From contig NZ_FOYM01000033.1 of NCBI RefSeq assembly GCF_900115975.1, positions 1-36,859 of the forward strand: DNA of 36,859 nucleotides, in the 5' to 3' direction. Positions 22,166 through 28,141 of the stretch are shown piece after piece (positions within the stretch are counted from its first letter, which is position 1; each line of letters begins with the position of its first letter). The translations under genes were made by a program, and so were the position numbers. The DNA comes from Desulfoscipio geothermicus DSM 3669. Lineage in GTDB: Bacteria; Bacillota; Desulfotomaculia; Desulfotomaculales; Desulfallaceae. The notes beneath the pieces were generated by a model, which saw nothing but the letters and a program-made list of their open reading frames with translations, was not told the DNA's origin and searched no databases.

Positions 22166-22609
22166 TTATCTTTTCATGCAATCCCGGCACCGGCCGAATA
22201 TTTTCAATTCGTGATCACTGATGTTAAAGTCATAGGTTTTACTGACCCGCTCCTCCAGGTCATCCAGCAAATCTTCATTCACCTCAATTATCCGGCCGCA
22301 CTCAATACAGATTAAATGGTGATGCCGGTGCCCGTTGTTGCTTTCGGCCCCGTATTCATAACGTTTGCGCCCGTCACCAAAATCCATGCTGTGAATGATG
22401 TCAAAGTTGGTGAACAGCTCCAGGGTGCGGTATACGGTGGCCAGACCCACATCGGGAGCCTTTTTTTTCACCAGATTATAAACTTCCTCGGCGCTGAGGT
22501 GTTTGTCTTTGTTTTCCAGCAGCACCCGCAGGACTTCCTCCCGTTTGGGAGTCATCTTGTACTCGTTGGCGCGCAGTTTTTCTTCCACTTCACCAATAAT
22601 CCCGCGCAT
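22166..22609 (-). CDS. fur: Fur-family metal-dependent repressor
   Basis: The 147-residue protein has the winged-helix N-domain (MTPKREEVLRVLL; the recognition region GLATVYRTLELF), the His-rich HRHHHLICIECG metal site, and a second CxxC pair in CRDCMKR. The two CxxC pairs form the structural zinc site. Fur, PerR and Zur share this layout. The presence of feoAB 3-5 kb away fits Fur, but PerR cannot be excluded by motif reading. ATG at 22609 follows GGTGGTGG; the frame extending to 22678 would run through the promoter. It is divergent from a strong promoter driving a candidate small RNA. Confidence 0.85.
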   Translation of the reverse strand: MRGIIGEVEEKLRANEYKMTPKREEVLRVLLENKDKHLSAEEVYNLVKKKAPDVGLATVYRTLELFTNFDIIHSMDFGDGRKRYEYGAESNNGHRHHHLICIECGRIIEVNEDLLDDLEERVSKTYDFNISDHELKIFGRCRDCMKR

Positions 22610-22639
22610 AAAAACCACCACCAGAAGTTTCTTTGAATT

Positions 22640-22669
22640 AGTATATACGTAATCGTTCGTTTCTGTCAA
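22640..22669 (-). promoter_or_regulatory. fur promoter
   Basis: On the minus strand TTGACA (22669-22664) and TATACT (22645-22640) are 18 bases apart. The start would be near 22633, leaving a leader of about 24 bases before the ATG. This shows that the upstream extension of the fur frame is not translated. Confidence 0.7.
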
Positions 22670-22700
22670 TATGGACATTTGTTCATTTAAAAAATTTATA

Positions 22701-22735
22701 TTGTGCTTGATTTCACATTTACAATCTTATATAAT
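22701..22735 (+). promoter_or_regulatory. Promoter with CRP/FNR- or Rex-like operator (site 1)
   Basis: TTGATT (22707-22712) and TATAAT (22730-22735) are 17 bases apart. The 18-mer TTGTGCTTGATTTCACAT (22701-22718) contains TGTG-N8-CACA and overlaps the -35. The operator-to-promoter phasing is identical to site 2 at 23910. The promoter points away from fur into the terminator-bearing leader. Confidence 0.7.
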
Positions 22736-22741
22736 ATGCTT

Positions 22742-22801
22742 AACCAAGGAAAAAACAACTGCCTCCTCTCTTTTCCCCGTTTTCCTAGCGGGTTTTTTTT
22801 T
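22742..22801 (+). ncRNA. Candidate small RNA or attenuated leader with anti-SD motif
   Basis: Starting about 7 bases after the -10 element, an RNA of about 60 bases would end at a hairpin CCCGTT-TTCCT-AGCGGG (22777-22793) followed by nine Ts. Its unpaired centre carries GCCTCCTCTC (22761-22770) and CTTTTCCCC. GCCTCCTC is the exact complement of GAGGAGGC (22932-22939), the SD of the downstream symporter gene, and a general anti-SD word. It contains no ORF. It may be a free small RNA or the leader of the symporter mRNA. C-rich, fur-linked sRNAs such as B. subtilis FsrA are a functional analogy only. Confidence 0.55.
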
Positions 22802-22818
22802 GCGATTTTGGCCTGTTT

Positions 22819-22857
22819 GACTTCTCCCCACGGTTGAAGTCGGGGGCCTTACGGCCC
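22819..22857. repeat. Possible IS200/IS605-type end hairpins
   Basis: GACTTC (22819-22824) and GAAGTC (22836-22841) frame CTCCCCACGG, then GGGCC-TTAC-GGCCC follows. The wording CTTCTCCCC...GGGGGCC is reminiscent of IS605-family ends, but no transposase is present. It lies between the leader terminator and the symporter gene. Confidence 0.35.
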
Positions 22858-22945
22858 GCTTCAGTAATCCCGCCAACCTTTTTGGCATATCCGCCCGGTT
22901 GATACCATAAAAAGATATAATAAAACCAGGCGAGGAGGCCCGGCC

Positions 22946-23878
22946 TTGTTTACTGTATTGGGAGTTTGCACCGGCCTGTATATGCTGCTCAAAGGCATGA
23001 ATGTAATGAAGGTGGGGTTGGAAAATCTTTCCCGGGAAAAGATGCGCCGGGCGCTGGCCAACCTTACGGCCACCCCGGTAACGGCGGCCCTGACCGGAAT
23101 GGTGTTAACCATGCTGGCCCAGAGCAGCACCGCCATATCCGTGCTCACTGTCGGTTTTGTCAACGCCGGTCTGCTCAACCTGGTCCAGGCCGTCGGCATC
23201 CTGCTGGGGGCCAACGTCGGAACCTGCATCACAGTGCAATTGATATCCTTTGATTTATTGCACCTGGCCCTGCCCGCGGCGGCGGCAGGCGCTGTTTTAT
23301 GGTTGCTGGGCCGCCAAAATCCCTACGGCCAACTTGGGCGGGCGCTGTTTGGTTTCGGGGCGGTTTTCGCGGGGCTCCATCTAATGGCCGCGGCACTGGC
23401 ACCCCTTCAACATGCCCCGTGGTTTACCGGAGCCCTGGTCTCCCTGCAGCGCAATGCGGCCCTGTCAGTAGTGGCCGGCGCGCTGGCCGCCGCCCTGCTG
23501 CACAGCAGCGCCGCCGCCACGGGTATTGTAATGCTGCTTTCCAACCAGAATTTAATAGAGCTGCCCACCGCCGTGGCCATAGTGCTGGGCAACAACATCG
23601 GCACCTGCATCACCGCCGTGCTGGCCAGTTTGAGCGGCTCCAGGGCCGGCAAACAGGTAGCCGCCGCCCACGTGCTGTTGAACGTTCTGGGCGCACTGCT
23701 GTTTCTGCCCCTGCTATACCCCTTTGCCCTGCTGGCGGGCTGCACGGCGGACAGCCTGCCCCGCCAGGTGGCCAACGCGCACACCCTGTTCAACATAACC
23801 AGCAGCCTGGTCGTTCTGCCGGTAATTTATCATTTTACCGCCCTGGTCCGGCTGGTAGTGCCCGACCGCTTACGTTAA
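22946..23878 (+). CDS. Na+/phosphate cotransporter family protein (NptA/PNaS)
   Basis: A 310-residue polytopic protein with the two inverted PNaS repeats: MLAQSSTAISVLTVGFVNAG with LLGANVGTCITVQ, and ALLHSSAAATGIVMLL with LGNNIGTCITAVLAS. The paired QSS/HSS and G-N-x-GTC motifs define Na/Pi-II-type symporters. The C-terminal PhoU-like domain of longer relatives is absent. The start is TTG at 22946 after GAGGAGG at about 7 bases. The upstream leader at 22742-22801 carries a word complementary to this SD. Phosphate uptake is expected from the family, but transport direction and substrate are not proven. Confidence 0.87.
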   Translation: MFTVLGVCTGLYMLLKGMNVMKVGLENLSREKMRRALANLTATPVTAALTGMVLTMLAQSSTAISVLTVGFVNAGLLNLVQAVGILLGANVGTCITVQLISFDLLHLALPAAAAGAVLWLLGRQNPYGQLGRALFGFGAVFAGLHLMAAALAPLQHAPWFTGALVSLQRNAALSVVAGALAAALLHSSAAATGIVMLLSNQNLIELPTAVAIVLGNNIGTCITAVLASLSGSRAGKQVAAAHVLLNVLGALLFLPLLYPFALLAGCTADSLPRQVANAHTLFNITSSLVVLPVIYHFTALVRLVVPDRLR

Positions 23879-27917: not shown

Positions 27918-28067
27918 ATGACCGGTATTGATGCCAAGGGCATGGAAGTGGCCAAATTGACCGAGGATCAGCTAAATCGCCTGGTCAGCGCAGAGAAGGA
28001 AATAAACAACGCCGGGGCCGGCCAGGAAATCTACCTGCTGGCCGTATCCCGCCACCCGGGCCGGTAG
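27918..28067 (+). CDS. 49-residue protein of unknown function, divergent from feoA
   Basis: ATG at 27918 follows a perfect AAGGAGG at 10 bases; the stop is TAG at 28065-28067. The product begins MTGIDAKGMEVAKLTEDQLN and continues RLVSAEKEINNAGAGQEIYL, ending with a short basic tail. It is mostly helical and soluble with no Cys or membrane segment. A 33-bp-stem hairpin begins one base after the stop. The SD strength, codon usage like its neighbours and the adjacent hairpin support a real gene. Its role is unknown; the shared upstream region with feoA is the only hint. Confidence 0.7.
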   Translation: MTGIDAKGMEVAKLTEDQLNRLVSAEKEINNAGAGQEIYLLAVSRHPGR

Positions 28068-28068
28068 C

Positions 28069-28141
28069 AAAAAGGGGGAAAAAGGGGACTGGCTCCGATT
28101 CGTTTTTTGAATCGGAGCCAGTCCCCTTTTTCCCCCTTTTT
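28069..28141. repeat. Giant hairpin, family C (GGGGACTGGCTCCGATTC)
   Basis: A perfect 33-bp stem (28069-28101 with 28109-28141) with a 7-base loop GTTTTTT. The left arm contains GGGGACTGGCTCCGATTC and two A5 runs. On the plus strand it follows the small ORF directly and ends in T-runs, so it can terminate that transcript. Its GGGGAC core relates it to families A and D. Confidence 0.9.

Follow-up and report, generated by a model that had tools for sequence, protein, structure and literature searches.

On balance, the best explanation for the DNA between the fur gene and the adjoining Na/Pi symporter gene of Desulfoscipio geothermicus DSM 3669 is that it contains an orphan transcription unit peculiar to this genome, probably giving a short RNA that has no dedicated action on the symporter, and that the symporter is served by a sigma-E-type promoter of its own. 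In the arrangement proposed, a cassette lying wholly within some 190 bp that relatives lack comprises a sigma-A promoter, some 60 noncoding bases and an intrinsic terminator, and probably yields a short RNA; the symporter mRNA would start near 22920 from the sigma-E-type promoter, past the terminator, and so would be without the C-rich segment of the cassette. The elements themselves are present in the sequence (Table 1; positions are those of the window, by which is meant the whole stretch of 36,859 nucleotides analysed, belonging to a genome of ~3.65 Mb), and from them we infer the use of each promoter. A confirmed transcript would serve as one instance of a young noncoding transcription unit in a spore-forming family that has received little study.

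Table 1. Features of the fur–symporter region, in order of position within the window.
Feature	Position	Strand	Basis or remark
fur (Fur family regulator)	22166..22609	-	Pfam FUR, 2e-38
fur promoter, TTGACA-18-TATACT	22640..22669	-	region kept in syntenic relatives
~190-bp stretch peculiar to this genome	22690..22880 (edges approximate)	.	without counterpart in aligned syntenic relatives
sigma-A-type promoter, TTGATT-17-TATAAT (10/12)	22707..22735	+	sequence; promoter-terminator pair above chance
predicted ~60-nt RNA, no ORF	22742..22801	+	transcript inferred
CU-rich GCCTCCTC, complementary to symporter SD	22761..22768	+	sequence match
intrinsic terminator: CCCGTTTTCCTAGCGGG at 22776-22792, then nine T; 6-bp stem, -7.6 kcal/mol	22776..22801	+	
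two adjacent small hairpins, GACTTC..GAAGTC and GGGCC..GGCCC	22818..22859	.	fold/sequence
sigma-E-type promoter of symporter, ATA-N16-CATAAAAAG	22887..22914	+	conserved; consensus form in PMC3789822
symporter SD, GAGGAGGC	22932..22939	+	upstream of TTG 22946
Na/Pi symporter-family gene, TTG start (22946)	22946..23878	+	Pfam PF02690, 6e-56; NCBIfam NF037997, 5e-78

The two coding genes form a divergent pair, with fur on the minus strand and the symporter gene on the plus strand. The start of fur was set at the ATG common to relatives; against the NCBIfam Fur model the protein gives an E-value of 2e-55, yet lies under that model's cut-off. The nearest homologues of the symporter are found in records named Desulfallas, Desulfotruncus, Desulfotomaculum and Peptococcaceae. 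A minus-strand ORF of 53 residues at 22727-22888 gave no match in a Pfam search.

An earlier note on this DNA had pointed to a strong promoter divergent from fur and to an ORF-free RNA of about 60 bases ending in a terminator, and all of these elements are indeed found, the transcript itself being predicted. The hairpin and its run of nine T begin 40 bases downstream of the sigma-A-type promoter, and at strict cut-offs this is the sole promoter-then-terminator pair of its kind in the window. At those cut-offs no such pair arose in 20 shuffles of the window or in 500 shuffles of the spacer, and at looser settings one arose in 0.4%, 3.8% and (at the loosest) 9.4% of spacer shuffles, although these percentages flatter the cassette somewhat because the cut-offs were chosen after the element had been seen. 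The pair does exceed chance, which makes a discrete ~60-nt transcript from 22742-22801 plausible. A leader-peptide reading of this RNA was rejected, since no ORF with an ATG, GTG or TTG start lies within it.

The earlier note had also described an exact complementarity of eight bases between the CU-rich stretch of the cassette and the symporter SD. The match is certainly present, but neither its length nor its energy stands far from chance: a perfect match this long (8 bp) to the symporter SD was found for 3.4% of dinucleotide-shuffled RNAs and a duplex energy this strong for 8.6%, and two or more copies of the octamer turn up in 25% of window shuffles. The symporter SD does rank first of the 27 ORFs in the window by predicted duplex energy, with others close behind. 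That CCTCC should match this SD follows from the resemblance of any CU-rich stretch to the 16S anti-SD, and it should serve as a caution that perfect matches between CU-rich RNAs and SDs come cheap. The same stretch had also been described as unstructured, and this part of the description is not confirmed, because four of its eight bases, 22764-22767, are mostly paired in the predicted 60-mer (only ~29-36% unpaired), their partner being AGGA near its 5' end.

A candidate promoter for the symporter itself, at 22887-22914, was overlooked by the earlier note. It has ATA some 16 nt before a CATA-type -10 element, and is the sole match in the window, on both strands, to a strict sigma-E pattern. 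Of the 12 closest symporter homologues (the window included), 9 have a sigma-E-like element at a nearly constant distance from the start, as against an expectation of ~0.06 per sequence in shuffles, the 12 homologues being related sequences. In its form the element resembles sigma-E mother-cell promoters, such as that of spoIIID in C. difficile, which has ATA-N16-CATATATA (PMC3789822). A sigE gene, scoring above the family cut-off, is present in the genome. Most likely the symporter is transcribed from this sigma-E-type (mother-cell sporulation) promoter, the conservation of which suggests that in this family the phosphate symporter may have a tie to sporulation; a literature search for yqeW together with sigma E found no paper. 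For an mRNA starting at 22920, fold prediction leaves the first six SD bases 40-86% unpaired.

Conservation was tested at family distance, fur being 75-84% identical within the family. The genes for Fur and the symporter stand side by side, or nearly so, in about ten relatives, and in the five that were aligned the gap between them is ~140-165 bp and contains, besides the fur promoter, a conserved stretch of TGTCAATATGAACGTATGTCAAT and, at its opposite end, an ATATC...CATA..A element before the SD. The window keeps both ends of this gap, and has in addition ~190 bp in which the promoter, CU-rich stretch and terminator lie together with two more hairpins. Neither the CCTCC core nor the terminator hairpin is found in any of the syntenic relatives read, so that, at family level, the outcome is the one that the earlier note had itself named as a refutation. 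A second copy of the insert was sought in the genome itself, in 16 family genomes, in 60 relatives and among plasmids and phages, and none was found beyond chance; viral contigs gave no exact match.

Taken together, an anti-SD function of the short RNA on the symporter is not supported, because the syntenic relatives have neither CCTCC nor hairpin, because the complementarity is about what any CU-rich RNA would show towards an SD, because there is no Fur box of the B. subtilis type, and because a conserved promoter, apparently the symporter's own, lies past the terminator. Pending RNA data or genomes from the same genus, we would regard the fit to the neighbouring SD as incidental.

What survives best of the earlier proposal is an attenuator acting in cis, although it too is unlikely. 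Here a vegetative read-through RNA from 22742 would hide the SD in a helix between 22761-22768 and 22932-22939, and sporulation transcripts made by sigma E would leave the SD open, giving a switch between two isoforms. The suggested structure prediction, run on 22742-22980, does yield this helix and a sequestered SD, with all eight pairs at probabilities of 0.89-1.0 and the SD unpaired at 0.003; removing or masking the C-rich part raises the predicted openness of the SD to 0.20, and when the RNA part is shuffled, only 4% of the resulting sequences hide the SD below 0.05. Against this, the scheme requires read-through of a terminator with nine T, and no anti-terminator was seen in the predicted folds; its elements are not conserved in the family relatives, the pairing was picked post hoc, and the fold energy of the whole RNA is ordinary (z -1.29).

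An equally doubtful possibility is that no useful transcript is made at all, and that the promoter and terminator are relics of a divergent gene since lost, or else of a mobile-element end, brought together by deletion or insertion. In two relatives (G001 and G007) the corresponding gap holds additional genes, and in G001 a hairpin-T sequence precedes the symporter; the minus strand of the hairpins at 22818-22859 also weakly resembles hairpin-bearing repeats, perhaps repeat ends, in relatives. The insert, however, has no sequence similarity to the gaps of G001 and G007, to plasmids or to phages. A specific origin of 22818-22859 in an IS200/IS605 end was considered and rejected, the likeness to repeats in G001 and G024 being merely loose, while the tnpB ends of this genome differ.

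The earlier note had also suggested that, as a free RNA, the product could act on many SDs in the manner of C-rich sRNAs, of which FsrA, IsrR and RoxS are examples; to this we would give slightly less credence still. FsrA of B. subtilis and IsrR of staphylococci, both Fur-controlled, are likewise short and terminator-ended, with a C-rich segment complementary to SDs (PMC9410917), and the RNA predicted here, with a predicted promoter and terminator of its own, would be similarly short and CU-rich. However, it differs from them in having one CU stretch, with a single CCTCC that is partly paired, and in lacking a Fur box: the best match in 22600-22960 has six mismatches to a B. subtilis-type 7-1-7 box, which may not be that of the host. 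It is tied to fur by adjacency only, its predicted target is not an iron enzyme, and the cassette is not conserved among the family genomes. RoxS/RsaE offers a parallel in its pairing of C-rich regions with ribosome-binding sites, but in RoxS there are several C-rich regions, which are conserved, as is its promoter with a ResD site (PMC4409812), and neither feature is seen here. No Rfam family matched at or above its gathering cut-off, the weak matches being at chance level, and the target octamer is not clearly enriched at start codons (28 cases genome-wide of octamer followed by start codon, versus 20 for a reversed control pattern), which together with the absence in the family tells against the suggestion. 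The least probable of the readings weighed, and a very unlikely one, is a two-promoter switch arising from a recent insertion in one lineage, whereby a long sigma-A RNA bearing the anti-SD would silence the symporter in growth and a short sigma-E RNA would be translated in mother cells.

Some further features were observed in passing. Upstream of fur, at 22664-22690, lies the ~23-bp TGTCAATATGAACGTATGTCAAT stretch, in which TTGACA is repeated twice on the fur strand. It hardly varies across the family, whether or not the symporter is there, but its distal half is changed to TGGACATTTGTTCATT in the window; it is possibly an operator. The fur–symporter gap of G001 (L041) contains two small ORFs, the second having a C-terminal MPGG repeat rich in glycine and methionine. 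Elsewhere in the window, a long palindrome built on GGGGACTGGCTCCGATTCG/CGAATCGGAGCCAGTCCCC occupies 28070-28135, and similar GGGGACTGGCTCC and GTCCCC sequences are found close to a tnpB at another site of this genome (L148) and, in two relatives (G005 and G004), upstream of fur. Finally, positions 27920-28069 hold a small ORF of 49 residues (MTGIDAKGMEVAKLTEDQLNRLVSAEKEINNAGAGQEIYLLAVSRHPGR), which is preceded by a strong SD, AAGGAGG, and runs divergently from the feoB region.
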